DNA from: Pilasporangium apinafurcum | Lineage: Eukaryota; Oomycota; Peronosporomycetes; Pythiales; Pythiaceae | Length of the DNA: 53,585 nt | NCBI GenBank assembly: GCA_001600495.1 | Contig: BCKE01000075.1 | Span: 104,270 to 157,854 of the forward strand | Direction of reading: 5' to 3' | Shown here: one piece after another, positions 996 through 28,043 of the stretch | Layout of the letters: each line of letters starts with the position of its first letter | Position numbering within the stretch: the stretch's first letter is position 1 | Notes under the pieces: generated by a model | Told to the model about the DNA's origin: nothing | The model's input: only the letters and a program-made list of their open reading frames with translations | The model's database searches: none | Made by a program: the position numbers and the translations under genes

Positions 996-2463
996 CTTAA
1001 CCTTTATTCCGCCATTTCTCCCACTAGTGGGATAGAAACTTGTTTTCAATTCTTCGCAATAAGCTTTTTTCTCCACTACCCTTCTTCTCAAGAAAGGATC
1101 CAGGTCGATGACAGTACATCTCCGAGGAGATCAACATTGCTTCCGATCTCAAGGACATCAAGCCAGGACTGTCCAGATTGATAGAAATGACACGTAAAAA
1201 GCAGATCTCGAGGATTGCAGTTACCATCCAATATCAATTTGAGTACGGACTCGTCGCACAAATATGTAAAGAGCATAACATCCAAACCATGGTTCACACT
1301 GATCAAACGATCCAAGATAGATGAACCAAGTCCGAACAGTATCTTGAAAGTGAAGTTGTATCCAACAAAGGAGCAGAAGCAACTTCTCAACAAGATGTTT
1401 GATATCAGAAAGTCTTGGAGTATCCTCACTGATAGAGATGTCAACGCTGCTAGAACACATCTTTTTCAAGAATGGACACCTCCAGTAGCATCCCACTAAA
1501 GAGAAATACGAAAATATGATGGTACCTCCTGACAATTACGTTCCCGATACTGTCATTGGGATCGACCCTGGTATGCGATCGCTCTGCACTGTCATTCGTG
1601 TGCGAGAAGTTGATGTGGAAGAGAAGGAAGCGAAATGCAACGGAAGGATACCCAAGCAAAGTCAAGTGAAAGAATCGAAGTAGAAGCGACGAAAGAAACG
1701 AAAGAAGAAAAGGAAGAGGAGACGCAAACACGGCGTTCGACGCAAGCGAACCAGTAACCAGCAGTACGATATTCAACAGATATCTATGCGAGAGTACAGA
1801 CATCTCGCCAGGATGAACAAGTGTATGTTCTGGTACGAGAACTTGAAGAAGAGAGAACATGCGTACGGAAGGATTATCCGAGAGATGCCTTCGTTCAAGA
1901 CAGCATCATATGAGCAGTATATGACAAACGTCAAGTATGTGTGAAGACATCTCGACTTCTTGGTGAGCTTCTGTGGATCGCATCCATTTCATAAATGGCA
2001 TTTCCTTCAGTTCAGATTTAGTCGGAAGACGTTGGCACATCTGGCAAAGCGGTTGGTGTCTACGTCAAGTCCTCAGGTTTGCATTGGTCTCGGTGACTGG
2101 AGTCAACAGGACTTCGTCAAGGGTCACGTACATGGACTCGTGAAGCGGTTCGCACATGAGCTGGTAAAGCGTGAGATCGTGCTGCAGATCGACGAGTACT
2201 GGATGAGTCAGTGATGCTCCGAGTGCTACCAGCAGCTTGAAGAGACGCTATTCCCGATAAAAAAAAGGCTGATGGAAGCACAAGCGTCAAGTTTTCCTGC
2301 CAGGTTCTTCACTGTAACAACAGCGAGTGCAGAATCATGTGGAAACGAGATGTGAATACGTCAAAGAACATCCTTACATTCGCTATGTGTCTCCTACATG
2401 GATTTCCAAGACCGCCAGAGTTACGACGAGGAAGAAAGAATGTAGGAAGAGAATAGAGTGTAG
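996..2463 (+). mobile_element. Decayed Fanzor composite element, copy A
   Basis: About 1.47 kb, repeated almost perfectly at 26576-28043, which defines both ends. At 1335-1400 a TnpB-like N-terminus (KVKLYPTKEQKQLLNKMF) is joined directly to a RuvC-III-like tail (LTDRDVNAARTHLF), so the middle is missing. From about 1540 a second, Fanzor1-like frame follows: RuvC-I (VIGIDPGMRS), a Lys/Arg-rich stretch, GDWSQQDFVKG, VLQIDEYWMSQ, the finger half CSECYQQLE and, after a frameshift near 2250-2310, the other half plus RuvC-III (VLHCNNSEC, KRDVNTSKNI) and the closing RPPELRRG. In-frame stops lie at 1681 (TAG), 1942 (TGA) and 2212 (TGA), so the element is dead. The first 230 bases carry, on the minus strand, a stretch (EKSLLRRIENKF) also found at about 11940-12010. 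No target duplication or terminal repeat is evident. TnpB/IS607-type elements typically lack both. Confidence 0.8.
1019..1032. repeat. 14-bp perfect palindrome near the left end of the composite element
   Basis: TCCCACTAGTGGGA is its own reverse complement. It lies about 25 bp inside the left end of copy A and recurs at 26599-26612 in copy B. It could be a structural or recognition feature of the element end, but it might be chance. Confidence 0.45.
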
Positions 2464-2907
2464 TCGTCATTCACATCCTCAGTTGTGCATACTTTGGAGT
2501 GGTGGTGTACAGCTGCAAAAAATTGCCTGTCACTGTGCTTCCAAAGATTCATTGATTTCCTGCCAGCGATCATGATTCTTGGATCTTGAGGCATCCATAG
2601 TACACACTTTGTTCACACTGGTTTCACTTGACAGGGCTGTTCACCAACAATCATTGACTTGAAACGATACCAGTACGCCAACGGCAACTCTCATCTCTTG
2701 TTTCTCTGAACGAAAAAGGAGATGACGATCCAGCAGTCCATCAATTCAAAAGCGGTGCTTCAGTATTGTTCTGATCCAAAAAAGACCCAAGTAATCATCA
2801 CGTCATATACACATAAAATTAGGATAAATCCTAGTTTTAGTTTTACATCCCATTCTTCCCTTTCGGCTTTTCCCCTCCCCCCCCCCTCATTGTTAACAAA
2901 ACTCAAC
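2464..2907. promoter_or_regulatory. Intergenic, 5' region of EPL1
   Basis: No gene is visible between the end of the composite element and the EPL1 start. A C-rich run at about 2874-2886 is followed by TCATTGTTAACAA at 2888-2900, which loosely resembles the oomycete initiator (TCATTYYNNCAWTTT) and sits 8 bp from the ATG. The match is imperfect, so it is only a candidate. Confidence 0.3.
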
Positions 2908-4774
2908 ATGCGGCGCCAAAGCCTCCGGCCGCGGCAGATTGACATCCATGCGCGCATGCGCATCATCCGCTCGGCGGAGGATCTTGAAGTGGACGACGAC
3001 GGCGCATCTAGTAGCACCGGTGTCGCCGGTACTGGCTCCCAACCACATGCATCTTTCGAAGAGCTCGTCGCTGTAAGTTTCCTCCTTTTGTGTATACTTA
3101 AACAAGAACAATACATAATAAGGAGCACATTTTGGATAGGGACTGGAAGACTACTCGTCAGCATCAAAACATGCGGCGGCTGCCGCAAACAAGCGCAAGA
3201 AGAAGAACATCCCCATTCCTATCATCTTGACCGTTGATTCTTATGACGACGCCATCCCGGACGATTTCGTCATCCCCACAAGTTATGTGCGTTTCCAAGC
3301 ACTCCCTCAACCTTCCTCCTCCTCTATTGACACAGACAGTCAATTGCAGAAAATAGAAATGGATTTGGAACTCGCAGAGATCAAATGGCTGCGTAAACAC
3401 GTGAAATATGGTGTCAATGGCGATCCACGGTATCAATTGACACTCGACCAATTAGCGAAGATGCTCGATGTATTAGAAAAAGCGTCTGCGTTGATCAATC
3501 CCAACGTCATCACCTTGGCCGAAGCAGAAGAAGTGCTAGCGAAGCAATTAGGGATGGTCCGCACGCCACTCAATAAAGCGACGGTCGATGTCTACAACTA
3601 CTGGGCTCAGAAGCGGCTGGCACTCAAGCGACCGTTACTGCGCAAGTACTGGCCACAGACACCATTAAACGACACGAATCCGCATTTAGTGTTTCGACCG
3701 CGCGAAAAAGAGAGGTATAAGTTGCGCAAGCACCGCAAGAATGACATGGATGGATACCGAAAACTCCAGCAACTACGTACAGACTTTGAGCGAATCCGCC
3801 ATTTGATGGACTTGGTTAAGCGCCGAGAGAAGGCAAAGCGATTGCAGATTGATTTTCTGGATGAAACTCGCAGGCAAGCGATACATGAATTGACAGTGCG
3901 AGATGGGAGTGTACGAAAACCAGTGATTCCAGTCGATGAAGAACGAGAGCGACAAAAGAAGAACAAAAAGAAGAAGAAGAAGAAACATCGTCGAGACAGT
4001 GAAGACAATATCATAAGTGGTGGTATAATCAATGGCACAGGCAGCGATGGTAGTGCGACTGGTAACTTATCCGCAGATAACAGCAAACCAACTGGTATCA
4101 CCGCGGGAGGTGCAGCTGACCTAGCGATGGAAAGTGGTCGTATCTTGACGTTTATGGAATACGACACGTCACAAAATTTCCGCATGTGTGGTGAAGAGAA
4201 TGATCCAGAACTGTCAATACCATACTACCCTTCCTATCCAATGTCTTCTTCACATATAATGGCGAGTATGTTCATGCAACCACCCAAGTATCGTTGTCGA
4301 GGTCGAATCGGTCGAGGTGGTCGACTGGTGGTTGATCGAATCCCTGTACCGTCGTCCCGATACTATGCGCCGACTGAAATCAATGCAACGATGGCCAAGT
4401 TTGCCCAAACATCTACCGGTCAAAATAGGAGCACTAGTGGTGGTAATATTGGGAATGGAGCTGTTCAGAGTGAATCTCAAGCTGCTTCGATGGGCGAAGC
4501 GATCAACAGTGGCCATGGCGGTGCCATTCTCGTCCATGAGACCTCTTTTCGGCCGTTGATGGCTAAGCTCGAGCAAGTAACAACAAAACGGGTGGAAGAA
4601 ATTTACAACATGAGCGACAGTGAAGACGAATTTCTGGAACCACTGACGTCGTCTGTCTACGAAACGACCACATCGCGGAAATCGGCGAGTGGAAGTGGAA
4701 GCAGTGCAGGTGGCGGGAAAATGCATCCGAATGTCTCACCACCACACATGCTCAAATTTGCGCTTGATATTTAG
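2908..4774 (+). CDS. EPL1: Enhancer-of-polycomb-like protein (EPL1), NuA4 complex scaffold
   Basis: Two exons, 2908-3072 and 3140-4774, give 599 residues. The intron (GTAAGT...ATAG) is phase 0. The N-terminus MRRQSLRPRQIDIHARMRI matches the start of the EPcA domain, and residues about 238-290 carry its hallmark FRPREKERYKLRKHRKND, followed by a leucine/arginine helix (RIRHLMDLVKRREKAKR). A Lys-rich run (KKNKKKKKKKHRR) may be a nuclear localisation signal. The C-terminal half is low-complexity Ser/Gly-rich. In yeast and animals Epl1/EPC bridges the Esa1/Tip60 acetyltransferase module to nucleosomes, and a chromatin role is inferred here by homology. It converges with the DUF4795 gene, with only 93 bp between stops. 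The start is the first ATG after a C-rich leader. Confidence 0.9.
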
Positions 4775-4867
4775 GTTTCCAGCTGCGTTTATGTAAAGAA
4801 AACAACAACATATAATGAAGAATAGGAAATAGCTTGACTCTTTTGGTGCATTTTCTTACTGGATCGT

Positions 4868-7745
4868 TCACAAGCGCTTCTCATTTCTCTTCAAAGTGGA
4901 GTCCTGTGTTAGCTCTGCAAATGGTCGAACAATCACCTAGCAGTCACAACAAACAGTGAGCATAAACCAGGAAAATACCAAGACAAGAGAAGCAGATCGG
5001 CTTACTGTTGACGATACCGAGCGCGTAATAATCTCGCTTCTTCGATCTGGGAGAAACGCCGTTTTTGGACGTGAAGCTATGGAGCTATTCATGAGAGACG
5101 AGTTCAGCACATTGTGAGCCATTTGATGACTAATAGCCTAGCAGTTAAACAGAGGGACAAGCAATACGCACTCTTCGGATCGATTACTATTCGATAGCGG
5201 CTTCTTCTTGAATGTGTTCGGTGTGATGGAAGGACCGTACACGACTTGATCGGACAGCAACGTTTTTCTCAGTGGGATTCGATTGCGTCCATCATCCAGA
5301 TTGACAAACGCATGTTTCACATCTGCCCCAGCCCAATTATTGTTGTTTTGATTAAAAATTCTCAATGCAACCTCCTGTCGATGCTTCCTCCGTTTCGACG
5401 CTGCCGTAGTGGATGATGGAAACGAGAACTCGCCAAATACATCCAAATCTCCAAATTGCTGCATGAAAAGCGAAGGTAGTTGCTTATCAGCTGCTGGGTT
5501 CGGTGGTTGATCTGGTATCTGGTGGTTGTGATGAAGATTATGGTTAGTATGATGCCCATTCAGTGCATGTGCTCCAAATGCAGCAGTTCCATGACTAGAT
5601 GTATCGTGTTCAGGCGAAGACGGACCACCCGGGAAACCATAGGGAACTGTCTGATCACAGGCAAGACAACGCATTGGTGATTTCATCACTGCGCCCATCG
5701 GTGTAGTGGGGACTCCTGAATGGTTTGTTGCCTCCAATATATTCTTTTGCAGTCGATCTATTTCCGATCGGTCCACTTTCGTTTGCACCACTTTGGTGAG
5801 CCGATCAATCACGTCTGCTGTCGTTAATCCTGACAGTTTGGCGCGTAAATCATCGACAGTAGCAAGCATACGAGTAGTTGAGTCGTTGGCTTTTGCGTTG
5901 ATCTATTATGTGCAAGCGCTAAATTAATCGATTTGGTTCAGTTCCAATGATTAAAATGTCGAATCATACCTGATCGCTTAACTCCTGGATGATGCGCATG
6001 GTGTCTTCTTGACTCGGGCAGGCCATCAACTGCTTTCGCAGTTCTAATTCGTCATCCTTTCGCTCATGAAGTTCACGATGCAGTTGATCAATCGCTGCTT
6101 GCTGCCGTGCAAATACCTGTTCATACTTTTCTTGTTGTGTTTCAAAAGCCTCCAGCAAATTAGCTGTACCTTGTTCCATTTGCTGCAGTGTATTGGTCAG
6201 GAAACTGGTGCTTTGTTGAGTCGATTCCTGGTCTAGTTCTACACGTTGACTGAGGTTGTCCAACTGTGTAAGCAAATTACGCACAGTTAGAAGCATCTCT
6301 GCACCTCGGTCACTATGTAAAGCGTCCACATCCTGATTCAGTAATGCTAATAATTCCATCAAAAGTTGCAGAATTTGACTTGTTTCTTCAAGTAGCTTGG
6401 TTATTTCGAGTGAAGGCGTATCAGGATTTACAGGCTGTTGTTGCTGGGCAATCAATTGAATCTGAAATTTCAGCAAATCTTGCTTGAGCGCTTCCAATGT
6501 CGTGGCATTTGCACCAAAGTCACAATGGTCGCGCGCGTTCTGCAGCCACTTGGTGGCGATGTCATCAAGTTCGTGTTTTGAGACGAAATCAGTGGTAGCA
6601 AAGGCATCAAAAGAGGTTTTCGAAGCGAAATGGTTTGGAAGATTATTGATTTGCGCTAATAGATCGACAAGCTGCTGCTGTTGACCCGTCTGGCAGATCA
6701 ACATACTAGCGGACAACTCCTGAAGCTGTCGCTCAAGATCGCGTTGTTGCTGCTCTTGCTGCTTGAACAGCTCAAGTGGCGTGTATAGTTGTTGTTGCCG
6801 CCTCAACTCATTCATCTGCAGATCACAAACCGCCAATACCTCCGTATGCCACTGTGCTCGTGCATTCTGCAACAAAAGCTGCATTTGTTTTAGCAGTTTG
6901 GCGTCTTTCAATTGTGCTTCCCGCCTTCGGGCATCTTCAGCTAGCTGCAGTTCATGACAGGCCACAAAGAGACTCGTCTTCTTCGAAGGTCGTTCACTTG
7001 TTATTGTCGTCATTGCCGATGCAGCTACTTCCTCGCTTGGCGCAGTGTTGCTGTTGAAACCCGATAATTGTGCAATTTGTTCGTCTATATCGCATTCACT
7101 CAATCTACTCTCTACTTCTTCGTTTTCTTCGTGGGTTTGTGCCATCGTTTCTGTTAGTATTGTAGTAGATCTGCTTTCGTTTACTTCTTGCTGTTGCTTT
7201 TCGTGTGCATCATCGTTATCTACATCATCATTCACTTGCCGGTGTGATCCTGCTCTAACAAGAAATTTTGCCTCATCACTCTCCAGCTGCATGAGAATCG
7301 CCTCGTTTTCAGTCAAGACATCACTAATCGATTGGAAACGCGCTTGCTGTTCATGAATCTTGCTCACATCTGCTACATCATTCGATCGAAAGAAGAGCTC
7401 CAGCACTACATTCAACTGTCGTGAGATCGTCATGATATAATACTCGAGCTCCTTGCTATCGGGTTCAGTCATGACATTGGCAGTAAGAGGTACTACCGCT
7501 TGTTCACTGGCAGTCGTAGCCGAAGCAGCAGCTGCTGCTGAAAGCGCAGCGGTGGTTTCGGCTGTGTTGGTGATAAGCTGATGCATTGAGTGGAATTTTG
7601 TGGTTACATCACCAGTAAGTGTCTCAACTCGCGTCTCCATCATTGCCATTCGATCCATGAAGCTCCGGATGAGCGTGTCAAACACAGAGCCTTGCGACAC
7701 AAAGAACGTCGTCACATCATTTTCTATATTGTCGAAGAGAGGCAT
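4868..7745 (-). CDS. Coiled-coil protein with DUF4795 (QRICH2-like) domain
   Basis: Four exons, 7745-5970, 5902-5172, 5129-5006 and 4936-4868, give 899 residues; all phases close. Residues 1-590 are mostly Gln/Glu/Leu-rich coiled coil. Residues about 595-680 contain LRAKLSGLTTADVIDRL, then TKVDRSEIDRLQ, then RCLACDQTV. This layout (helices, a 'KxDRSEI' segment, then a CxxC turn) fits DUF4795 of QRICH2, a sperm-flagellum protein in mammals. The role here is inferred to be axonemal or basal-body associated. The 42-nt intron 5171-5130 is short, but skipping it would leave a stop at 5138, and the spliced frame continues cleanly to RNEKRL. The family call rests on motif memory, so another long coiled-coil family is possible. 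Confidence 0.6.
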
Positions 7746-9327: not shown

Positions 9328-11560
9328 ATGCTTGGATTCCAGCGACTCTTGTCATGGTTGGCATTGCTGCTATCATTGGCTGTGCTTGTGATTCACACCA
9401 ACGCAGACACAGAAGCTGAACAAACGAAAGTGCCCTTCAGTGATTTTGTCGGGCTGACTTGCACCGTGACCAGCGATTGTGGCTATTTGCCCAGCCTCTC
9501 TTGCATTGATGGGTGCGTTCAAGTTGCTTCTGCTACAAATGCCAAGAAATAGAAACTAATCTAAGCCGTATGAATGTTGTGGTGATGCACGTATGCAGTG
9601 TTTGTGACTATTGTCGACAAGATACCGATTGTGCTTCTAGTCCGACGGACCGACACAAGCGCTGCCACATTGGCCTCATCTGGGACGATGCCGCACAGCA
9701 ATCATTGCCACAGATGGGCATCAATGCCAATGGTGAACCAGTGGCAGTGGGTTTCTGTGTGGAGAAAGACCTTTTCGCTCCATTCACTAGGACGGATTTT
9801 ATAGCGACGCTAATGGCATTCCTAAGTACAGCCATGGGGTCGGGTGGTGGCATTGGCGGTGGCGGATTGTTGGTGCCATTGTACATTTTTATCACCGGGT
9901 TCAGTCCGAAGCATGCTATCCCGCTTTCCAAAGCTACGATTTTTGGTAATGCGGTCGCGATGCTTTTATTCAATTTCGTACGCAAGCATCCAAGTACGTT
10001 GCTCATTTTTATATGTCACGTGACTTGTATCAAAGCTCTTATTCTTCTTGTTACTTCCACTAGATAAGCCGAATGTCCCGATCACCGACTTTGCTGTGTC
10101 GGTCGTGATGGAGCCCATGACGCTCGTTGGGTCTATCTTTGGTGTGATGCTGAACCACATATTGCCCAATTGGGTTATCCTGCTATTGCTTATCACGTTA
10201 TTGTCCTTTATCACGTACAAGACCTACCTCAAGGGAAACAAGGTACATTTGCATTTGTACGGCTGTTTATACTAGACGAAGTGCCATTGTTAACACCGGA
10301 TATGATGTAACTGACTAATCAGATTCGAGGAAAAGAAACAAATCGTGACGAAGCAATCATTCGCTCAACATTGAGTGGCAAGCGAGGACGTCGCTGGTCC
10401 ATTTTTCGCGTGTGTTTATTGCAAACTTATTACTTAGATGTGCAACAAATGTCTTGTTTATTGTAACGTGCTATTGTTGCGTTTTGGAATAGCATTTCGA
10501 TGTGGAGACGGCGGCAAAACATTGGTTAGCCATCACACGTCGCAATAAGAAGCAACGGCAGATCCAACGCGAAGATGAAGAAGATTTCAAATCACTCCCA
10601 CCACTTCCATTTGGTATTGAATGCAGTGGTGCCAACGGTTATAACAAGAGCGCAATGCCATTGGTGAATAAGGCCACACTATCGACAAAGCCAAATGGCA
10701 TATATGGCACATTTGCAAACGGTAAGTACTTGTAAATCACATCAAACGTATTGATTGAAGAACCTAATGCTTAATATTGATTACTAGGTGTGGGAGACGA
10801 TAGTATTTGGCCATCTATTCGACAATCGATTGAGCGCCGCGAAGCCCGGACGTTCCCAATAGGTCTCGTTCTCCCTTTGATTGTCTCCTGGGTCATCGTG
10901 TTTGTCCAAGCGCTGCTACGTGGTGGCCATGGTGCGCCCAGTATTATTGGCATCGAGTGTAATTCCACCAACTACTGGCTGGCCACAATCTTTCCCTTGG
11001 GGATCTTGATCGCATTCACATTGTACACCGGCAGGCAATTGCGATTAGAGAACCGTCTAAAAGTTCTGAGCGGCTACAAGTTCACTGAAGGTGATATCCA
11101 CTGGACCAAGAAGCGCGTGATCTGGACACCACTGTGTTGTACACTCGCCGGTGTAGCCGCTGGGCTCTTGGGGATCGGTGGCGGGATGGTTAAAGGACCG
11201 ATTATGCTTGAAATGGGTATGCTTCCACCGGTTCAATCGGCCACCACGAGCTTCATGGTGCTGTTTACGTCGTCATCAACGACTTTGCAATTTGCGATCA
11301 ATGACCAGTTCCCTGGTACATTGCAGTATGATTACATCGCGTGGTTTGCGTTTGCTGGGTTTCTTGGAGGGTTGTGTGGGCAGAAAGTCGTGGCATATTG
11401 TGTGAAGAAGTACAAGCGTGAGTCTATCATCGTTTATCTGTTATCCGCCGTCATTGGACTATCGGCCGTGGCGATGGGCATCATTGGCTTCCAATCGACG
11501 TTGAAAGACATTAAGTCTGGTTTGCATTTGGGCTTCCATGGCATCTGTGGGACCGATTAG
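9328..11560 (+). CDS. TauE/SafE-family membrane transporter, tandem copy 1
   Basis: Six exons (9328-9512, 9599-9993, 10064-10242, 10323-10409, 10493-10721, 10788-11560) give 615 residues. A signal peptide (residues 1-30) leads into a Cys-rich lumenal or external segment (LTCTVTSDCGYLP, CDYCRQDTDC). The two inverted TauE/SafE half-repeats follow. The first is marked by GGGIGGGGLLVP and SPKHAIPLSKATIFGN, the second by GIGGGMVKGPIMLEMG and PPVQSATTSFMVLFTSSST. Between them lies a charged loop encoded by exons 4-5. Family members move sulfite, sulfoacetate or related organic anions, but the substrate here is unknown. Exons 2, 3 and 6 have the same lengths as in copy 3. The start was chosen because copy 3's ATG falls at the same distance before the Cys-rich segment. 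Confidence 0.88.
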
Positions 11561-11621
11561 CAATAGAGAGCGAAAAGCAGTGCATGGAAATAGAATTTGT
11601 AAACAACTAAGATTGACCACG

Positions 11622-12408
11622 CCTCGTCTCAGGGATCAGTGCGATACCAATAGATACCGGTAACTTGGGGAGGATTTCCTGTTCCGTTGTTTAAGTTCGA
11701 CTTGACCAGCAAAAGTTAGCCTAAGACTAGACAACCACGGAGTAGACATTTCTAACACCTGGATTCATCAAGTCCAGGTAAGTAGGTGCTTATTCTTGAG
11801 GAAGATGTTTCTATTGTGATCTTTGCCTTCCTTTTGCATCAATACTACCGCGTCACGCTTTCTAGACAATCACTTTGACTTAGCCATCAGCTGTATCTCC
11901 TCGAACATGCACTGCCATCGCTTCGCATCTGTTATTGAAAAGAAGAATGGTGGAGAAAATAACTCATTGCGGAGAATTGAAAACAAATTTCCGCTTCTAT
12001 CGATGTGGGTTTGTTTGCCTTAAAAAGCACGTCAAAGTGTATTCTAGAGGTAGGAGAAATGGGGAATAGAGTTAATGCATTGCTCACGACTACCCAAAGT
12101 TGGCTGTAAGGAACACAATACAACGAAGACTTGTTCTCAGTGTGGGAGAATCAACCACGGAATGAAGCACTAGAAAATCTCTGACTGTCTTTACTGCAAG
12201 TTCGTCCTTGATAGAGATGCCGATGCTGCTAGAAACACCTTTCTCAAGAATAAACACCTTCTCACCTGGATTCATCGACGCCAGGTATCGGAGATGGCTA
12301 CTCTGTGGTTCGCTAGTCTTAAGTAGTTTTTGCTAGTCAAGCCAGATCCAAGCAACAAAACAGGGGATCCTCCCTGAGATACTTTCGTATCTCATATGAT
12401 TCCTGAGG
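11622..12408. mobile_element. Fanzor2-like remnants forming a 0.8-kb inverted repeat
   Basis: The right arm (plus strand, about 12100-12408) encodes a Fanzor/TnpB tail: TKTCSQCGRINHGMKH, a TAG, then CLYC and LDRDADAARNTFLKN (zinc finger and RuvC-III). About 150 non-coding bases follow. The left arm (11812 down to 11622, minus strand) is a diverged copy of the same thing: RNIFLKNKHLLTW, then a matching non-coding tail. Shared blocks in the tails include CTACTCYGTGGTT, CTAGTCTTA, TTTTGCTRGTCAAG and AACAGGRRATCCTCCC. Each arm has a hairpin right after the coding end (ACCTGGA/TCCAGGT at 11757-11779, ACCTGG/CCAGGT at 12264-12286). The centre (11880-12023) reads NSLRRIENKF on the plus strand, seen antisense in composite copies A and B. 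All frames are broken. It fills the gap between TauE copies 1 and 2. Confidence 0.7.
12375..12394 (+). other. 8-bp stem with TTTC loop in the Fanzor 3' tail
   Basis: TGAGATAC, loop TTTC, GTATCTCA forms a perfect 8-bp hairpin. It overlaps an alternative CAGGG/CCCTG stem (12361-12376). It lies about 100 bp past the broken Fanzor coding end, the place where guide RNAs of TnpB/Fanzor elements are encoded. The stem is not preserved in the diverged left arm. Confidence 0.4.
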
Positions 12409-12480
12409 TGTGGGTTAACCATTCTATTTTTTTTTGCGACACGAGCAGATCATTTCAGAATTGCCAACGGCAGAAGCGCA

Positions 12481-14651
12481 ATGATGTCCACCAAACGGCT
12501 TCTGCTGCCGCTGCTGGCGATAAACACTATATGCCATCACACTGTATGGGCCACACCGCTTGAGAATTCATTGGTCCCTTCTCGTACATGCAGCAGCAGC
12601 AACGACTGTGGATATCTTCCCACTCTCGCGTGCATCGACGGGCAAGTAGATTAGTTGTTGTCTCAGTTTGTTAGCTACTTTTCATCACAAGTGTTACCTC
12701 TTGCGATAGTCGGTGTCATTTCTTACTAACCGACGCGATTATATGTATATTTCAGGTTATGTGCGTCCTGTCGAACAGATCGCGACTGCGTCGATGACCC
12801 CCATGACCATTCAAGGCGGTGTCATCTTGAAAACGACAATGATGAAAATGATCCACTCGCAGGACTTTGTGTGGAAAAGAACCTTTTCACACCATTCACA
12901 TGGAATGATGTTGTTGCAACGGTCATCGCTTTCTTCAGTACGGCGTTAGGCTCGGGGTGTGGTATTGGTGGTGGAGGATTGTTAGTGCCAATGTATATAT
13001 TTATCATTGGTCTAAGTCCGAAACATGCCATTCCATTGTCGAAAGCGACGATTTTCGGCAACGCTGTTGCAATCTACTTGTTCAATTTCAAGCGCAAACA
13101 CCCACGTTAGATAGCTGCATCGATAGTCGAATTGTGCTGATGAAACTTGCTGAGTTTGTACGTCTCTCCTATTGTAGAGAAACGAAACGTACCTATCATC
13201 AATTACGCTGTGTCAGCGCTAATGGAACCCATGACGCTCATCGGCTCGATCTTTGGTGTGATGATGAATCACATGTTTCCGAATTGGCTCATTCTGCTGT
13301 TGCTGATCAGTCTACTGTCCTATATCACCTACACAACGTACCTCAAAGGGAACCAGGTAAGAAAGCTGGTTAATCGCTTGACATTTTATTCCTGCTAGTA
13401 ATTTCTGAAATGAAAAACTACGCAGATTCGTGGTAAAGAAACTAGACGAAATTTCTTACTCATCAAGTCAGCGCTGAGAGGCGGACCAGGCGGTGGACGT
13501 CATGGACGAACATGGTCCATTTATCGTGTACGTTGAGCTTTGCATGCGATTTACTCAGCTATCAGTTTAATTGTATACTACATGTATGATGACTTACTCA
13601 TTTCATTTTCCTTGTTCACAGCGATTCAGTGTTGAAATTGCCGCGAAGCGATGGTTAACGATCACTCGTCGCAACAAGAAGCTTCGTGAGATCCGTCGAC
13701 TTGATACAGAAGACTTTCAATCGCTGCCGCCGCTCATGCTGCCACCCACTTCTACCACAGCGCTATTAGATAAGCTGGAACTCCAGAAGAAGACGGATTT
13801 TGGCACGTTTACCCAATGTAAGTAAACTCATGAGCAGCTAGATATATAAACATGCTAATCGCTTCGTGTATTCAGTAAATGCTGATGATGACAGTGCCTG
13901 GTTATCCATCCGCCGCTCCATTGAATGCAGCGAAGAGCAAGTATTTCCACTCCCATTCATTTCAGTTCTCGTTCTGTCCTGGCTGGTCGTTATCGTCCAG
14001 GCATTTTTGCGTGGTGGGCATGGGGCTCCCAGTGCAATCGGGATCGAGTGTAATTCAACGGGTTATTGGCTGTTAACCATCTTGCCAATGGGGCTTCTAG
14101 CTGCATTGACCCTATGGATTGGCTATCGATTGCGATTAGAGAATCGGCTGAAGGTGTTGAGCGGCTACACGTTTGGGGAGGGCGATACCCACTGGACCAA
14201 GAAACGCGTACTGATCTTTCCAATCATTTGTACGTTGGCAGGAGTTGCTGCTGGGCTCTTAGGCGTCGGTGGAGGGATGGTCAAAGGACCAATTATGCTG
14301 GAAATGGGGATTTTACCTCCTGTACAATCCGCGACAGCCAGTTTTATGATCCTCTTCACGTCTTCATCGACTACACTACAATTTGCAGTCAATGGCCAGT
14401 TTCCTGGCTCATTACAATACGATTACGTTGCGTGGTTCGCGTTTGTGGGATTTCTTGGTGGCTTATGCGGGCAGAAAGTCGTGGCATACTTGGTGAAGAA
14501 GTACAAACGTGAGTCCATTATGGTCTACATCCTCGCCGGGACGATTGGCCTGTCAGCGATGGCCATGGGCATCATTGGGCTCCAATCAACAGTGAAGGAC
14601 ATTGAGTCCGGTACACACTTGGGCTTCAACGGGATCTGTGACAGTGAGTGA
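12481..14651 (+). CDS. TauE/SafE-family membrane transporter, tandem copy 2
   Basis: Six exons (12481-12641, 12756-13105, 13178-13356, 13426-13527, 13622-13817, 13876-14651) give 587 residues. The layout matches copy 1: signal peptide, a shorter Cys-rich segment, first half-repeat (GCGIGGGGLLVP), charged loop, then second half-repeat (GVGGGMVKGPIMLEMG). Intron 1 appears to begin with GC (GG/GCAAGT) where copies 1 and 3 have GG/GTGCGT; no GT nearby keeps the frame. Exon 2 is 45 bases shorter than in the sisters, from loss of part of the Cys-rich loop. Two blocks of exon 6 (14247-14323 and 14346-14542) are base-for-base identical to copy 3, although flanking exon sequence differs, so conversion between copies 2 and 3 is likely. 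Transported anion unknown. Confidence 0.87.
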
Positions 14652-14801
14652 GTTAATAAATAGACTTGGCTAAGATAATTCCCAAAGCAAGCCCGCCAAA
14701 AAAATGAAGCCATCTTGTTTGATTGGGAAGGACACTCAACAAGACAGTTTGATTCATCCCCAAGAGCTACGTATTTTCAATTTGACAACAGACAAAATTT
14801 G

Positions 14802-14839
14802 ATTGGCTATTTCATTTGAAATATGTATTTTCAGCCAAT
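14802..14839. promoter_or_regulatory. Inverted CCAAT pair upstream of TauE copy 3
   Basis: ATTGGCT at 14802-14808 faces AGCCAAT at 14833-14839 across 24 AT-rich bases, about 150 bp before the start codon of copy 3. CCAAT is the core of NF-Y sites. A similar facing pair lies at 19231-19289. The function is inferred only. The rest of the 14652-14987 gap shows no gene. Confidence 0.4.
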
Positions 14840-14987
14840 AATAGAGATTAATGCACGGACTAGTCGTACTTAACCGAAAGTGCACATCAAAAACTGCCAG
14901 CGGTAACGTCAGAGGCACATCGAGTCACACGTAGACAGTTGGCATCCGCTTACTGCTCTCCTTATTCCTCACATATCCTCAAAGACT

Positions 14988-17178
14988 ATGAGGCAGTGTC
15001 TGCGTCAAGTGCTGCTACTCTTGGCAGTAGCAGTGGCTCTGCCTAAACAGATAAACGCTTTGGACTTGACTGAAGAGACGGTGCCATTCAGCGATGTGGT
15101 GGGACTGACCTGCTCCAGTCGACCGGATTGTGGCTATCTTCCGGGCTTGGCCTGCATTAATGGGTGCGTTTTTATCATCTTGTTCGCTCGATAATGGTTA
15201 GAGCTGGTGATGCTAATAGTTTATTGTCATGCGTAGATTGTGTGAGTACTGTCAACACGACAGTGACTGTGCTGCCAGCAGCACGGATGACTCCAAGCGC
15301 TGTCATGTTTCTCAAGTGCTCGACTCTTTAACACAGAAACTGGTGACCCAATACGGCGTGAATTCCAAGGGAGATGATGTACCTGTGGCGTTTTGCGTAG
15401 AGAAAGATTTGTTCTCGCCATTCACCTGGAACGATGTGCTGGCCACAATCATCGCGTTCATAAGTACGGCGTTAGGCTCCGGCTGTGGTGTTGGTGGTGG
15501 AGGGTTGCTTGTGCCTATGTATATTTTTGTGATTGGACTCAGCCCGAAACACGCGATTCCACTATCGAAAGCTACGATCTTTGGCAACGCTGTTGCGATT
15601 TACTTCTTTAATTTCAAGCGAAAGCATCCAAGTAGGTTCTAACTTCATGAGGAAGATTGAGGCTAAAAGACTTACTTGGCTCTTTATGTGAATAGACAAA
15701 CCGAACGTACCAATCATCAATTACGCGGTAGCTGCACTAATGGAGCCACCAACGCTTATTGGGTCGATCTTTGGCGTCATGATGAACGATGTTTTTCCGA
15801 ACTGGCTGATTCTGCTGCTTCTAGTGGCGTTGCTTTCGTTTGTCACTTACAAAACGTACCTCAAAGGCAATAAGGTTTGTGTGATTCTCGCTTTGTATTT
15901 GGATAAACTACGATGTTTGTTTGCTTATACGGATGGCTTGTTTGAATTTTGGCAGATTCGTGCCAAAGAGACTAAGCGCAAAAAGGACATTGTGCGGAAA
16001 ATTCTTACAGGCAAGCCCAATAGCGGCACACCATGGTGTGTCTTTCCAGTACGTGTCATTATTCTCATTTTCTCACTTTCTACCTTCACACACGCAAAAA
16101 AAACTCATCTTATCCGCGCTTAACAACGCATTCATAGCGCTTTGATGTCGAAATCGCAGCAAAACGATGGTTGGCGCTTACAAGATGCAATCGCGAGCTT
16201 CGTGAGTTGGAACGTCAAGATCACGCAGATTTTAAGTCACTTCCACCACTACAGCAGCGCGTTCCTGCAACCGCCACGATGCTGCTCGAGAAGAAGAAAC
16301 TGGATCTCCAGGACAAACATGAAACCGGTAAGGATGGTCAAACTATTCTCTCTCTACATGTTCCTTGGTCCTATTTGATTAATGTATTTTTATATGTGCC
16401 TGTAGTCGCAGTGGACGACAATAACTGGACATCAACGCTCCAGTGCATCCAACGCCGGGAAGCACTCGTGTTCCCACTCGTCTTCATCATCCCTTTGCTT
16501 TTTGCCTGGCTGCTTATTCTCCTCCAGTCACTTTTGCGCGGTGGTCATGGAGCTCCCAGTATCATTGGCGTCACTTGTAATTCGCTTAACTACTGGCTAC
16601 TGACGATCTTACCATTGAGCATTCTCGTGGTTATCACACTCAGCGTTGGCCATCATTTACGACTAGAGAATCGACTGAAGGTTTATAGTGAATACCCGTT
16701 CGCTGACGGGGATATACACTGGATAAAACGACGCGTATTATTCTTCCCTGCATCCTGTGTCATGGCGGGGATAGCTGCTGGGCTCTTAGGCGTCGGTGGA
16801 GGGATGGTCAAAGGACCAATTATGCTGGAAATGGGGATTTTACCTCCTGTGCAGACCTCAACTGCGAGCTTCATGATCCTCTTCACGTCTTCATCGACTA
16901 CACTACAATTTGCAGTCAATGGCCAGTTTCCTGGCTCATTACAATACGATTACGTTGCGTGGTTCGCGTTTGTGGGATTTCTTGGTGGCTTATGCGGGCA
17001 GAAAGTCGTGGCATACTTGGTGAAGAAGTACAAACGTGAGTCCATTATGGTCTACATCCTCGCCGGGACAATAGGGTTGTCCGCAATTACGATGAGTATT
17101 GTGGGGATGCAGAATTCACTGAAAGATCTGGAAACAGGTACACATTTGGGATTTAATGACGTCTGTGTAAATGAATGA
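14988..17178 (+). CDS. TauE/SafE-family membrane transporter, tandem copy 3
   Basis: Six exons (14988-15163, 15237-15631, 15696-15874, 15956-16048, 16138-16327, 16406-17178) give 601 residues. The protein starts with a clean signal peptide (MRQCLRQVLLLLAVAVALP) and a Cys-rich segment (LTCSSRPDCGYLP, CEYCQHDSDC). The first TauE half-repeat follows (GCGVGGGGLLVPMYIF, LSPKHAIPLSKATIFGN), then a charged loop, then the second half-repeat (GVGGGMVKGPIMLEMG, LRGGHGAPS). Exon lengths 2, 3 and 6 equal those of copy 1, while the exon 6 sequence is in part identical to copy 2. The three genes stand head-to-tail about 0.3-0.9 kb apart and each has its own upstream gap, so they are probably transcribed separately. 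The stop lies 91 bp from the converging ankyrin gene. Substrate unknown. Confidence 0.88.
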
Positions 17179-17269
17179 AAAGATTAGACGAAAGATGAGA
17201 TTGGTGATAGAAATGTATTGTACACGTTTTGGTGTGTTGCTTCATCCATCTTATCTTTGTGCAATTGGT

Positions 17270-18763: not shown

Positions 18764-19393
18764 GATTGTTGTGCTTTATAGTCTCTGTCTTGATGTGGGT
18801 GGGTAATACAAACGCTAGGCGTCGTGTGGGATTGTGATGAGAATGGATGGTTGGTTTCGCTTTGTAGGGCAAGAACACTTTCTTGACGTCAATATACAGC
18901 ACCTTCTGGTCAATCGACTGATCGGGATGTTGATAGCAGTGAATTGAGATCTTTGTGGAAGAGAGCACGTCGATAGAGAGAGCGAGAAAGAAAAAATTTT
19001 CATGTGAATGGCCAGGTGAAAAGGGCGAAACAGGCTGGTAGTAGTGTGAAACGCCGTGTACTATCTACTAACATCGGAAGGCGGCTGGTGATGGGTTTGT
19101 TGGTGTGGAAACGTGCAGAAGAACAGCAGGGTGCCAAGCGTCACTTCTGGGTTTGTGGCGACGCTGGCTGCGGCAGAGACAACAGATCCCATTTGCCATA
19201 CTGGTTCTCTCTGCCGTACCTGTTCGATCTTTGGCTAATTTTGACCAATAATAAAATATTAAATTATGGAAAAATTATTTTTTAGCCAATAATAATCGAT
19301 GTATCCATGTCCCTGAAGAGCTGCACACTGAATGCCTAGCGGTGGCTGACCTCTCTTTACACATTCACATCAAGTCCTATCCATGTGTCACCA
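18764..19393. promoter_or_regulatory. Intergenic; upstream of the ankyrin gene, with an inverted CCAAT pair
   Basis: No gene is seen in these 630 bases. They lie 5' of the ankyrin gene and 3' of the TMEM135-like gene. TTGGCTAA (19231-19238) and TTAGCCAA (19282-19289) form a perfect facing pair that includes CCAAT cores, with another CCAAT at about 19245 and a very AT-rich spacer. A TC-rich run sits near 18976-18995. Confidence 0.4.
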
Positions 19394-20816: not shown

Positions 20817-21007
20817 TTCTCTTATCTTATTTTCGCAAGCTGTCCGTCGGTACGGAAAACGTATGAGCTTCACTATTCATTTTGTCCGTGTGGCCAAACC
20901 TGTCATACTGACTAGAAAACCTGACAAACGAATTACCTCGAAATCTTATTTTCAGTATAACCAACTGCAGGTGTGTCTTTGCAACCAGTATGAGAATTTT
21001 TTTACTG

Positions 21008-21328
21008 GTATGACATTCGACAATTCGCTACCATGGCGTCAAAGCACTCAAGAAGGAACTGGCAAAGCGCACTACCGTTCGTTCCGTCGACGAGTTTCGT
21101 ACAAGCAAGTGATGTTTCCACTGTCACGCTGAACTTTCGAAGGTAGTCTTCCCGAAAATGGTCAACGGCGTTCCCGATGGCACAATTGAATCTCGATCCG
21201 TTTTGCACTGTGAATCCAGTGAATGCAAGACGTTTTGGGATCGCAACGTGAACGCTTCGCTGAATATTATGCGCGTGACGACAGAACTTTTCAACAATCG
21301 AGCAAGACCAGAGTACTTGCAACGATAA
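21008..21328 (+). mobile_element. Fanzor1-like C-terminal remnant
   Basis: The frame reads GVKALKKELAKR, then SVDEFRTSK, a TGA (21110-21112), CFHCHAEL, VLHCESSECKTFW, and RuvC-III DRNVNASLNIMR, closing with NRARPEYLQR and TAA at 21326. This is the Fanzor1 order: a conserved 'DE(F/Y)RTSK' strand, a split CxxC...CxxxxC finger, the last catalytic Asp, and the short Arg-Pro tail. Only the last ~105 codons remain, and nothing recognisable survives upstream of about 21000. The sequence is diverged from copies A and B, so this is a separate insertion. It lies antisense and just upstream of the TMEM135-like gene. Confidence 0.75.
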
Positions 21329-21329
21329 T

Positions 21330-21492
21330 CAAGTGAGTCGTAGAAGCGCAAAAAAAGCGTGAGCTCGGGGTCTTCGGGCTTGAACCTGCTCACACGGTAC
21401 AGCCCGTATTCTAGGTGTAGCCAGTTGGTAGGTGCAACTCGCTTCGCGAGTTGGAGTAATCTAGTTTGAAGCACCTGTAGACAGAAAAATGA
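21330..21492 (-). other. Orphan coding-like exon
   Basis: On the minus strand, after a CTGTAG acceptor at about 21479-21484, an open frame reads LLQLAKRVAPTNWLHLEYG, then LYRVSRFKPEDPELTLFLR and FYDSL, and runs into the 3' end of the Fanzor1 remnant. It looks like real protein sequence, but I recognise no family. It could be a first exon of the TMEM135-like gene, with the Fanzor remnant in the intron, or the stump of a gene cut by the insertion. Confidence 0.35.
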
Positions 21493-21571
21493 ACAACAGA
21501 CACAGCTCAGCACATGTGGTCCTAGTTATAGCATTTTATCAAAGTGGACCACATGGAAATAGGATGGCAAT

Positions 21572-23629: not shown

Positions 23630-23769
23630 TGGTGCATGGATAGATATTGTAGAAATCATTCTCTTTAGTAGTCCAAGTAAATATTCGGAGTTGAATGTCC
23701 AGTGCTGATGTTGTGCTTTGTAGCTGTTGTTATTGCGTTAGGAAGGCACGTACTTGCATAATATCCACT

Positions 23770-26154
23770 TTATTGTCGGCTTTGGAGGCTATGTCTGTTT
23801 CCATCAGTATCTTCCATCAACGTAGCGATTGCGAGAGCCACACAATTGCTGGTCGCTTCAAATTGAGAAAGCCACCGATTGCTGTAGCTGAGGCAGAGCT
23901 TGGCTAGCCGTTTAGCATTCGCAGACGATACATGGGCCGCTTCAAACTCTCTCATGTGTAGCTGTTCCACTGCTAAATTGTTGTAGCACACAGCAGCTAA
24001 GCAAATCTTTTGTGCGGACGCACCGTCGCCATTCTCCCCCGTTTCCTCCAGTTTGTTCTCTTCGATCATCTCCAGGATACTAGCCATGTGTTTTATTGCT
24101 TCCTGATGTTTCCTCTGATATGAAAGCAAATTTGCTAGATGAAGGCGACATTTGGCGAGATGGGACCAGCTGTTTTGCTTGGAATGGATTTCCTGTGCTT
24201 TTAGAATGTATTGAATTCCTGCATTTGGTTTTCGGCGCCTGTAATAATAATGAGCGCAGGTATCGTATAAATATGCCAAGAGCTCGAGGCGCATAGTAGT
24301 GCTCACCAGAATGGAGTTGTCGAGAAGATGCTCCGCTTGTTTTATTAACTGCAGCGCTGATGCGAACTTTTGATAGTCGATACAGCGACTGGCAAATGCA
24401 TTGCAAGTTACAACAAGCTGTTTCCAAAGCTTGATATCCAATTCATCCATTCCTCGTGCTCGTATCAGAGTGATTAAAAGCGACTCCAGCATTGTGATAC
24501 ACTGAGTGAACTTTTGTTTTGCCTCCATCTGCCGCACTTCTTCACAGAGTCGATGCTCACACATGGCTAACGATGTCGGTACTTCATGTCTTTTACCAGG
24601 GGAAGTGGAAGATGGCTTGTCTGGAGAAGGTTGATGTTGTGAAAATCCATGCGCAAGCGCACACCACACAGCTTTGACCGCGCCTGTTCCTGCAAACCAA
24701 ATTGGACGCGGCACTTTCGGCATATTGATAATCACATTCCCATCTTCAAGTCGCTGCGATGGTTCCCATGATCGATGAATCGTGCGTGGTCGTCTGTGAT
24801 TCCTTGTCGTAGGGATCGACGAGGTTGATGAATCTAGATGCCCATTGATCGCTGGAAGTGAGCAAGATTGCCCGAGGTGTCGTGGTCTACTACTGTTTGA
24901 GGTTGGAGCTTCGATAGTAGATGGCCGTGGTTGCGGAGTCCCTATACGAATTGATCTGCTGGCAGGTCGACCGTTCTCTATGCAGGCATTTTTACTCACG
25001 GATACACCGGCTGCCTTCGCCTTCATGGACGTAGCGTAAATGGTCAAGATCTGTCGCGCCAGCTCGTTTTCCCACTCACCCTCATTTTCTGGAGCATGCT
25101 CTGGAGGACGGAGTAGTTCCGAATCGCACCGTATAGACGAGGGTTCAATTGCAGCAGTAGGTTCAATATTCTCTTCCCGAAGCTGTGATGCATCTGAAGC
25201 TTCGTTATTTAGATCTTCTATGTGAGCTGCAGTATCTGGTGCTTGCTCAAGTGCACATATTTGCGAAGGATCGGTCTGTCGGCTTGCCCTCTTTGTATGA
25301 TCAGGACTTTCACCTGAGGCATTGTGACTTGTGGCATTCGACTGATATTGTTGTCGCATATTTCCTATGAATCTGTTTTCGGTGTCACCGTCTAAGCAAT
25401 TGCTCTTTTTGATCGGTTGTTTTGCCTCAGATAATAATGTCTTCGACTTTTTTAAAATGGCATGCGTCTTTTGACTCACTTTTTCGCGCACGGCATTGAA
25501 CTCAGCTTCTATGGAGTTACTGCAGTCTCCATACTCGTCGCTGCTGTGTGCTATCATATTGTCGCTTCTTGGCTTTGCTGTTGCCTGCCGCTGGTGCGAA
25601 GACTTGGAAGTGCTCCGCTTGGGTTTTGCATTTGCACTCGAAATTAATGGCGAGTAAAGTAACTTGTCTTCGTGGAATTTTCGAGTCTGATTTCTCTTGA
25701 CTTGCCTTATCGTTTGCGAATCTCTTCCAACTAATTCCTCCAGCCCTTGAGAGGGCAATTCTTGAAGCTGCTGCAAACTTGTGGAAGCGCTGATTTCCAG
25801 TTCATTGCATCGTTCTTCCCGGCTTATTATAATCGGATTACTTTGATAAGCTCTTTCGACTACTTCAGAAGGTTCGCAAAGTTGTGAACTTTTTGTCTCT
25901 GCGCACCGAATAGGCGTATACGTCAGTCTCTGGACATGTGGCAGGTCAAGACCGCTTTCAGATAACGAATGTAGCACTAAAGTGTGCAAATTCCGCTCTA
26001 ACCGCGTTGGAGATTTGTCTTTTGATCGCACTCTCGCTTTCAATTGTGCTCGGTTCGAAGGCAGCGCAAGTCCAGAAGCGCGAAGACTATCCATTACATG
26101 CTGAATAATTTCATCTCTTTGTGTTCTTAGCATTGCCTCGTGTCGTTCATTCAT
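23770..26154 (-). CDS. Large protein with C-terminal TPR-like repeats
   Basis: Single exon of 794 residues from the first ATG (26154); the frame extends 6 codons further up without an ATG. The first 500 residues are polar and disordered (Ser, Gln, Arg-rich, with SVSKNACIENGRPASRSIRI and similar). Residues about 515-780 form paired helices typical of TPRs: QKFASALQLIKQAEHLLD, LYDTCAHYYYRRRKPNAGIQ, LHLANLLSYQRKHQEAIKHM and AVCYNNLAVEQLHMREFEAA. TPR arrays are protein-binding scaffolds; the partner is unknown. I could not tie it to a named family. There are no transmembrane segments. Confidence 0.75.
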   Translation of the reverse strand: MNERHEAMLRTQRDEIIQHVMDSLRASGLALPSNRAQLKARVRSKDKSPTRLERNLHTLVLHSLSESGLDLPHVQRLTYTPIRCAETKSSQLCEPSEVVERAYQSNPIIISREERCNELEISASTSLQQLQELPSQGLEELVGRDSQTIRQVKRNQTRKFHEDKLLYSPLISSANAKPKRSTSKSSHQRQATAKPRSDNMIAHSSDEYGDCSNSIEAEFNAVREKVSQKTHAILKKSKTLLSEAKQPIKKSNCLDGDTENRFIGNMRQQYQSNATSHNASGESPDHTKRASRQTDPSQICALEQAPDTAAHIEDLNNEASDASQLREENIEPTAAIEPSSIRCDSELLRPPEHAPENEGEWENELARQILTIYATSMKAKAAGVSVSKNACIENGRPASRSIRIGTPQPRPSTIEAPTSNSSRPRHLGQSCSLPAINGHLDSSTSSIPTTRNHRRPRTIHRSWEPSQRLEDGNVIINMPKVPRPIWFAGTGAVKAVWCALAHGFSQHQPSPDKPSSTSPGKRHEVPTSLAMCEHRLCEEVRQMEAKQKFTQCITMLESLLITLIRARGMDELDIKLWKQLVVTCNAFASRCIDYQKFASALQLIKQAEHLLDNSILVSTTMRLELLAYLYDTCAHYYYRRRKPNAGIQYILKAQEIHSKQNSWSHLAKCRLHLANLLSYQRKHQEAIKHMASILEMIEENKLEETGENGDGASAQKICLAAVCYNNLAVEQLHMREFEAAHVSSANAKRLAKLCLSYSNRWLSQFEATSNCVALAIATLMEDTDGNRHSLQSRQ

Positions 26155-26172
26155 TTTCTGTGATAGTTTCAC

Positions 26173-26575
26173 ATGACATTTGTGAGGGTACTTCGATGCG
26201 GTAAAATGTTTCTACTTCACATGTTGCCCACCTCTATGATTGACGTCACTTGATCCATGGAGAGCATTGCTGTTTCACCGCTTTGATTATTTCAGTGGCA
26301 GTATAATAATGTAGTGAGAATTTTTTGCAGATAGTATCACAGTGGGAATCACATACCTTTTGCTTTCATTTCCAGCATCATTCATTGTATCCAACTTCGC
26401 GTTGTATACTGTGCTGCTTGGTTTCTGTGTCGCATCAAAATGATGCTCTCTGATCGATTTACTAGCTATATACCTTAAATCCCTACACTCAGCATATCAA
26501 CATACTTTTTGTCGGATAAATTTAGAGCTATGAGTGCAACAGTAGAGACCCTTCTTCGCAAAGAACCGATCCTGT
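26173..26575. other. Intergenic, no gene recognised
   Basis: This 400-bp gap lies between the 5' end of the TPR gene and the left end of composite copy B. It is AT-rich and has no coding signal. It should carry the TPR gene promoter. Confidence 0.5.
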
Positions 26576-28043
26576 TTTAACCCTTATTCCCCCGTTTCTC
26601 CCACTAGTGGGATAGAAACTTGTTTTCAATTCTTCGCAATAAGCTTTTTTCTCCACTACCCTTCTTCTCAAGAAAGGATCCAGGTCGATGACAGTACATC
26701 TCCGAGGAGATCAACATTGCTTCCGATCTCAAGGACATCAAGCCAGGACTGTCCAGATTGATAGAAATGACACGTAAAAAGCAGATCTCGAGGATTGCAG
26801 TTACCATCCAATATCAATTTGAGTACGGACTCGTCGCACAAATATGTAAAGAGCATAACATCCAAACCATGGTTCACACTGATCAAACGATCCAAGATAG
26901 ATGAACCAAGTCCGAACAGTATCTTGAAAGTGAAGTTGTATCCAACAAAGGAGCAGAAGCAACTTCTCAACAAGATGTTTGATATCAGAAAGTCTTGGAG
27001 TATCCTCACTGATAGAGATGTCAACGCTGCTAGAACACATCTTTTTCAAGAATGGACACCTCCAGTAGCATCCCACTAAAGAGAAATACGAAAATATGAT
27101 GGTACCTCCTGACAATTACGTTCCCGATACTGTCATTGGGATCGACCCTGGTATGCGATCGCTCTGCACTGTCATTCGTGTGCGAGAAGTTGATGTGGAA
27201 GAGAAGGAAGCGAAATGCAACGGAAGGATACCCAAGCAAAGTCAAGTGAAAGAATCGAAGTAGAAGCGACGAAAGAAACGAAAGAAGAAAAGGAAGAGGA
27301 GACGCAAACACGGCGTTCGACGCAAGCGAACCAGTAACCAGCAGTACGATATTCAACAGATATCTATGCGAGAGTACAGACATCTCGCCAGGATGAACAA
27401 GTGTATGTTCTGGTACGAGAACTTGAAGAAGAGAGAACATGCGTACGGAAGGATTATCCGAGAGATGCCTTCGTTCAAGACAGCATCATATGAGCAGTAT
27501 ATGACAAACGTCAAGTATGTGTGAAGACATCTCGACTTCTTGGTGAGCTTCTGTGGATCGCATCCATTTCATAAATGGCATTTCCTTCAGTTCAGATTTA
27601 GTCGGAAGACGTTGGCACATCTGGCAAAGCGGTTGGTATCTACGTCAAGTCCTCAGGTTTGCATTGGTCTCGGTGACTGGAGTCAACAGGACTTCGTCAA
27701 GGGTCACGTACATGGACTCGTGAAGCGGTTCACACATGAGCTGGTAAAGCGTGAGATCGTGCTGCAGATCGACGAGTACTGGATGAGTCAGTGATGCTCC
27801 GAGTGCTACCAGCAGCTTGAAGAGACGCTATTCCCGATAAAAAAAAGGCTGATGGAAGCACAAGCGTCAAGTTTTCCTGCCAGGTTCTTCACTGTAACAA
27901 CAGCGAGTGCAGAATCATGTGGAAACGAGATGTGAATACGTCAAAGAACATCCTTACATTCGCTATGTGTCTCCTACATGGATTTCCAAGACCGCCAGAG
28001 TTACGACGAGGAAGAAAGAATGTAGGAAGAGAATAGAGTGTAG
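26576..28043 (+). mobile_element. Decayed Fanzor composite element, copy B
   Basis: Aligns to copy A at a constant offset of 25580 with no insertions or deletions over 1.47 kb. By eye there are three mismatches in the first 25 bases and two inside (2058/27638 and 2152/27732, both G in A and A in B). It shares every stop and the frameshift of copy A, so both descend from an already dead element, and the duplication is recent. The flanks of the copies do not resemble each other. The right end (GAGTGTAG) abuts a dead ankyrin gene. Spread of a dead element implies help in trans, segmental duplication, or an assembly artefact. Confidence 0.8.

Follow-up and report, generated by a model that had tools for sequence, protein, structure and literature searches.

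The window, by which we mean the whole 53,585-nucleotide stretch of Pilasporangium apinafurcum DNA analysed here, is the final part of contig C75, and the genome searched comprises 36.47 Mb in 136 contigs. As the initial annotation had it, the window carries two nearly identical copies of a dead Fanzor composite that lacks terminal inverted repeats. Direct alignment of positions 996-2463 with 26576-28043 yields 1468 bp with 6 mismatches (about five had been claimed) and no gaps, at an offset of 25580 throughout. The mismatches fall at 996, 1003, 1011, 1014, 2058 and 2152; the BLAST match, 1467 bp long, includes five of them. Beyond these bounds identity at the same offset is at chance level, the flanks of the pair display no similarity on either side, and likeness of the two copies by chance is excluded. 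Four of the six mismatches lie within the first 19 bp, which the initial annotation missed; counted inside the element, three of five are confined to the leftmost 17 of its 1466 bp, a post hoc binomial probability of 1.5e-5. Outside the pair, a distinct, young Fanzor2 element contributes its 3' part at 1-708 (forward strand), with five single Ns and 97-98% identity to at least seven other loci.

Organisation of the composite

The element is a non-autonomous chimera, in which an IS607-type left end is followed by a serine-recombinase remnant, a gutted Fanzor2, the C-terminal half of a Fanzor1 and a guide-RNA-like 3' end. Both copies lie on the forward strand. Copy 2 is full length (26578-28127, 1550 bp) and runs from a TA core at 26578-26579 to a TA core at 28126-28127; copy 1 (998-2463) has the true left end, with its TA core at 998-999, and is truncated by about 85 bp on the right. 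The left end proper, TAACC..TTTCTCCCAC.., occupies 26578-26614 (998-1034 in copy 1) and follows the left-end pattern of the family. The IS607 serine recombinase TnpA survives as a remnant only, a reading frame at 26692-26901 (1112-1321 in copy 1). The window copies themselves are not among the 111 IS607-TnpA matches of the genome, and the assignment comes from relatives that match the model NF033518 below its cut-off, namely the composites at C10:56514 (E 9.6e-10) and C38:174052, and locus L073 (6.8e-15).

The Fanzor2 piece at 26912-27059 (1332-1479 in copy 1) joins N-terminal KVKLYPTKEQKQLLNKMF to C-terminal DRDVNAAR. It matches HTH_OrfB_IS605 (E 7.9e-6), and its zinc-finger region is reduced to the RD end. 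Its relative L044 has an open frame of 504 aa with the whole domain (PF07282, 3.7e-21) and the mimivirus TnpB-like protein L79 as best PDB match. The marks of Fanzor2, a TnpB-like N-terminal domain and a CxxC..CxxC..RD end near an IS607 TnpA, are found in this lineage. The fusion junction lies at 27060 (about 1480 in copy 1), the start of the match to L081, an unfused, broken Fanzor1 with an N-terminal half, whose similarity to the composite begins exactly there (query base 485).

The Fanzor1 C-terminal half extends from 27060 to 28036 (1480-2456 in copy 1) and contains the motifs GIDPG and GDWSQ and a zinc finger, CSECY..CNNSEC..RDVN. Its class was decided by the match of one profile and by kinship with locus L079. 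Profile A1, built from six copies, matches the Parasitella Fanzor 1 at E 5e-4, its sole match below 0.01. Single pieces searched against the PDB matched two Fanzor1 chains weakly (E 0.03 and 0.09), with an unrelated chain ranking higher (0.015); the other single pieces of this half gave no Fanzor1 match there, and Pfam and NCBIfam named no family for this part (best PF07282 at 0.0018, below cut-off). In the same genome, L079 has a stop-free frame of 681 aa with a RuvC and zinc-finger half, to which the Fanzor1 half is 47% identical, and its named relatives in the protein database are Nothophytophthora, Phytophthora and Globisporangium proteins. One relative, P0002, matches only three Fanzor chains at E <= 0.01. 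Two of these are named Fanzor1, and the third, from Spizellomyces, we take to be Fanzor1 as well. The fused piece itself, as a protein-database query, finds only partial oomycete Fanzor1 relatives. By this kinship to Fanzor1 structures, the right half of the composite is assigned to Fanzor1.

Distal to this half, the right end of copy 2 (28044-28127), missing from copy 1, forms guide-RNA-like hairpins up to the TA core. Single-sequence folds predict up to three hairpins (three in L020, two each in L002 and L005), and the 3' region of a separate Fanzor1, L080, folds into the same three, although the single-sequence folds are not all concordant. RNAalifold finds a partial structure with an energy of -6.4, a value that none of 100 column shuffles reached (mean -2.0).

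Family size, element ends and lesions

A genome search with copy 1 gave 514 first-look candidates, of which the 40 best, a sample that is not random, were scored (L001-L040). All 40 are copies, the window pair and 38 others with 81-89% identity to copy 1. In nearly all of them (T)TAACCTTTATTCCCCCATTTCTCCCAC or a near variant opens the element after unrelated flanks, the deviants being L024, L028 and L037. At the other side, 39 of the 40, copy 1 being the exception, continue about 85 bp past the position equivalent to 2463 and 28043, to ...CCAGTA or a near variant; the final bases read ...CACGGTTAGGCCGTATTCTGGTAATCGCCAGTA or a variant, and L004 has diverged at the last ones. This places the end of copy 2 at about 28127 and marks copy 1 as truncated. 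The earlier proposal that the shared ends of the pair reveal the element limits holds on the left, within 2 bp and at the TA core, and fails on the right, where a limit at 2463/28043 is rejected since every one of the 40 copies except copy 1 goes further.

Both ends recur widely. At up to 3 mismatches the left-end pattern has 111 genome matches (100 of them listed) and the right-end pattern 72, with none for either reversed control. Thirty of the 100 listed left ends are paired with a right end 1.1-1.7 kb downstream, which leaves 70 of these left ends and 42 of the 72 right ends unpaired at this threshold. The same IS607-type left end also stands upstream of IS607-Fanzor2 elements at C62 and C55. 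The dinucleotide TA is fixed at both junctions, as expected for the IS607 family: on the left T occurs in 37 and A in 39 of 40 copies, on the right T in 39 and A in 37 of 39. The base before the left TA is T in 31 of 40 copies, and that after the right TA is A or G in 36 of 39. Inverted repeats are absent, as judged from the two end alignments only.

The three in-frame stops and the frameshift that had been reported as common to both window copies are present in each. In copy 1 the stop codons in the Fanzor1 frame lie at 1681, 1942 and 2212 with a frameshift after 2214, in copy 2 at 27261, 27522 and 27792 with a frameshift after 27794, and neither copy has an intact nuclease frame. Across the family these lesions are in the minority. 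The same stop codon occurs in 7, 8 and 8 of the 40 copies, pair included, any stop in 7, 9 and 9, and a sense codon in 32, 31 and 29. The family was therefore not yet dead at the time of its spread, and the pair shares its stops through whatever made the two copies alike; the idea of a unit already dead before copying, taken for the family, is thereby rejected. Among the 42 copies read no long intact frame was found, the longest being 302 aa. Variability by codon position, lower at the second than at the third position in five of six pieces (exception A1), hints at a past coding constraint.

Help from an active recombinase, which the initial annotation had offered as one option, is not supported by the assembly as searched here. 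A search for IS607 TnpA with one family model, introns ignored, gave 131 candidates, all scored, and 111 matches. None of the 111 exceeds the family cut-off, which was attained in just 2 of 7 matching control genomes, and every match longer than about 150 of the 187 model positions contains stops, such that no match is both long and stop-free. One stop-free frame of 218 aa at C36:99362 covers model positions 87-183 only. Pairing of the match lists likewise revealed no complete three-gene element with TnpA, Fanzor2 and Fanzor1. In the past the element most likely dispersed through serine recombination at TA dinucleotides with help in trans, IS607 TnpA being the presumed agent of this earlier mobilisation.

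Likeness between copies on one contig

The near-identity of the window pair is not special. The median pairwise identity in the family is 87.8%, and five other pairs reach at least 99%, each on one contig. In all of the nine most similar pairs both members share a contig, and 16 of 40 copies have their nearest relative on their own contig, where 0.62 would be expected and 10,000 permutations gave at most 8. Identity declines with distance over 12 same-contig pairs, which are not independent of each other (Spearman rho -0.88): it is 99.4-99.7% at 15-34 kb, 96-99% at 49-107 kb, 93% at 169-197 kb and 85% at 909 kb. Equal TnpA scores, used as a proxy for near-identity in further pairs in place of base-by-base comparison, give a similar picture in the separate list of 111 TnpA matches, where 4 of 10 equal-score pairs lie on one contig, against 1.4% of all pairs.

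The six pairs with at least 99% identity, four of them in inverted orientation, differ mainly at their ends. Pooled differences amount to 25/536 at the left end, 11/8211 in the interior and 9/701 at the right end (five pairs, copy 1 lacking a right end), whereas the family median divergence is similar by segment, with 10.1% on the left, 11-14% inside and 14.3% on the right. Single pairs can be exceptions: the first segment is free of differences in L024/L025, as is the right end in L018/L019. The pair L008/L017 is a mosaic: differences along the element number 11/101, 25/250, 3/373, 2/400, 1/298 and 19/134, the ends being 10-14% and the middle less than 1% apart, without an N in either copy. 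By segment, the partner ranks 31, 7, 1, 1, 1 and 32 among the other copies. Tracts with sharp limits between otherwise diverged copies, as gene conversion would leave, are seen on both sides in L008/L017 and on the left in L012/L013.

Ectopic gene conversion in repeat families produces mosaic copies, favours partners on the same chromosome and declines with distance. The present copies resemble this in all three respects, being mosaic, same-contig biased and distance-dependent in likeness. We consider it probable that the window copies are independent old insertions whose interiors were made alike by intrachromosomal gene conversion, and that, after the spread of the element, copies within about 100 kb of each other may have been overwritten in this way. 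In the window pair the conversion tract would reach from within about 20 bp of the left end to the end of homology in copy 1, and a tract that spans the interior would explain the same stops and frameshift in both copies. The options listed in the initial annotation did not include gene conversion between old insertions. Against conversion as the process stand the six of 10 equal-score TnpA pairs that lie on different contigs; moreover, L026 and L029, located on C4 and C22, are identical over a stretch of 372 bp, which implies that conversion or collapse was not strictly local in this assembly.

The strongest alternative is an assembly artefact, in which one interior consensus was placed at two sites and true differences were kept only at the ends that are reachable from unique flanks. 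The concentration of differences at the ends of near-identical copies would fit, and isolated Ns are about five times denser in elements (46 in 65,695 bp) than in flanks (14 in 101,685 bp). L009 and L011 have 14 N positions in common (of 16 and 15), and L029 and L030 both of theirs, one of which is shared by L026. Ns at equal positions indicate that parts of these interiors are one consensus placed repeatedly, and in these two pairs assembly collapse sharpens the near-identity effect. The misassembly option raised earlier is in this sense partly open. However, no N lies inside the window pair or L008/L017, and copies that are 12% apart should not merge, so that a real near-identity would be required first. 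The bias for the same contig and for short distance is likewise hard to obtain from collapse alone unless assembly was local, and the unmatched end stretches range from about 17 to about 480 bp. Weighing the Ns shared in other pairs against their absence from these two, we regard an artefact as an unlikely, albeit serious, explanation of the window pair.

Recent local transposition is less probable still. Copy 1 would derive from copy 2, or both from a third copy, by IS607-type excision and nearby reinsertion, helped in trans; local hopping would yield pairs on the same contig, and both window copies have the canonical left end between unrelated flanks. But copy 1 lacks the right end, the six closest pairs, pooled, differ more at their ends than in their interiors, L008/L017 is a mosaic, and no long stop-free TnpA was seen among the 111 matches, the open frame at C36 being partial. 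We therefore reject simple local transposition on account of the mosaicism, the end-clustered differences and the lack of a long stop-free TnpA match. Segmental duplication of a piece carrying the element is very improbable here, as the flanks of the window pair are dissimilar on either side and its left edge is the element end of nearly all other copies, even if the right flanks of L018/L019, alike for about 0.5 kb past the element, resemble a larger duplication.

If intrachromosomal gene conversion is the process, as we favour, homogenisation that depends on distance makes pair identity no guide to copy age in such families. For ectopic conversion in an oomycete-like genome, the family is also a naturally occurring data set. 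A limited literature search found no report of ectopic gene conversion in Fanzor elements.

Fanzor1 within IS607-type units

The presence of Fanzor1 within IS607-type units is a more novel point than the likeness of the pair. A derivative at L076 has the same Fanzor2 deletion. Next come an intergenic segment and the Fanzor1 upstream region, which is likewise found ahead of the unfused Fanzor1 of L081 and L082. A 681-bp query across this arrangement matches 24 genome places, its own included and the others 83-90% identical, 20 over nearly the whole query and four from base 95-117 onwards. At these places the gutted Fanzor2 end and the region just upstream of Fanzor1 follow each other on one contiguous stretch. 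L076 is consequently one contiguous repeated unit, and its interpretation as two adjacent elements is rejected. Seven further places begin to match the query only at about base 425, which is also the start of the similarity to L082. This suggests that Fanzor1 elements possess their own left boundary, so that insertion of a Fanzor1 element beside an IS607 piece explains the arrangement as well as old cargo does. A conjectured left-end pattern of Fanzor1 elements had one genome match only.

IS607-Fanzor2 elements without Fanzor1 have a different right end, ..CCCAAACAATAACGGTTAA, and the composite is read as an IS607-type unit that took up Fanzor1 and retained the Fanzor1 right end. The recombinase acting on this pair of ends would presumably be IS607 TnpA. 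Tentatively, IS607-type elements may have carried Fanzor1 as cargo alongside Fanzor2, the fused derivative then spreading to dozens of copies, a scenario to which we give slightly less than even credence. If it is true, one recombinase would accept the ends of both kinds of elements, and a possible route is indicated by which Fanzor1 and IS607 joined or parted. A genome whose elements join Fanzor1 and IS607, with ends mapped by dozens of copies, turns the recombinase of Fanzor1 into a testable question.

In the relevant passages of Yoon et al. 2023 (PMC10711439), a survey that sought an association of Fanzor1 with IS607 units without success, no Fanzor1 is apparently encoded in IS607 transposons, and such intermediates are regarded as support for a model leading from Fanzor2 to Fanzor1. 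The same passages give GG as the core of ISXfa1, in contrast to the TA core of the present family. Compared with the eukaryotic IS607 elements with Fanzor2, as far as described in the corresponding part of Bao and Jurka 2013 (PMC3627910), the composite likewise combines a serine recombinase (here a remnant) with Fanzor2 (here a piece), and likewise lacks inverted repeats and any target-site duplication beyond the core dinucleotide. It differs from them in its TA core, with the context T-TA-A/G, and in its right half, a Fanzor1 with its own 3' RNA-like end. With oomycete Fanzor1 it shares the C-terminal RuvC and zinc-finger half and 3' hairpins similar to those of L080, whereas about 50 aa of Fanzor2 stand in for the lost N-terminal half and the whole follows an IS607-type left end. 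Like non-autonomous TnpB/Fanzor-only elements, it would need a recombinase in trans (PMC3627910 in part, otherwise general background), but unlike them the present unit is a chimera of two Fanzor elements, in at least 40 copies.

Other Fanzor elements of the window

The window opens (1-708) with the 3' portion of a young Fanzor2 element that is distinct from the composite and shares 97-98% identity with at least seven other loci. Five of the six Ns of the window fall inside this element, which is followed after 288 bp by the start of the dead composite copy 1. Elsewhere in the genome, the composite copy L028 (contig C14) is likewise directly preceded by a copy of this young element.

A deletion derivative of another Fanzor1 element occupies positions 20878-21467; it is 91-95% identical to its relative L080, a separate Fanzor1 locus of the same genome. 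The body is missing between two near-identical CGTCAAAGCNCTC stretches, and a 19-bp palindrome (CAACTCGC..GCGAGTTG) is located close to the right end.

Remnants and duplicated genes in the window

IS607-Fanzor2 element remnants are found at 11640-12408, where a left end with part of TnpA (11895-12075) lies on the minus strand and a Fanzor2 zinc-finger end (12104-12400) on the plus strand. The window likewise contains a tandem gene duplication (9430-17069), the blocks of which are spaced about 2.5-5.7 kb apart and share 72-83% identity.

Genome-wide content and further pairs

Across the whole 36 Mb genome, which yielded 852 candidates, all 150 of the 150 scored PF07282 matches were above the cut-off. 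Some are situated in open frames of at least 500 aa, a few of which are inflated by N gaps. At C36:99362-99664, a 218-aa frame without stops matches the model of the IS607 transposase over model positions 87-183.

Further same-contig pairs were picked on scores alone, these being equal or nearly equal in the Fanzor/IS607 searches. Four are inverted (C2:967908/981278, C1:564878/577127, C105:13588/35374 and C66:195570/200716), and C9:409698/433071 is the sole pair of these five that is not. The composite copies L018 and L019 (C26) likewise form an inverted pair, with 15 kb between them; they have about 0.5 kb of right flank past the element in common, but not the left flank.
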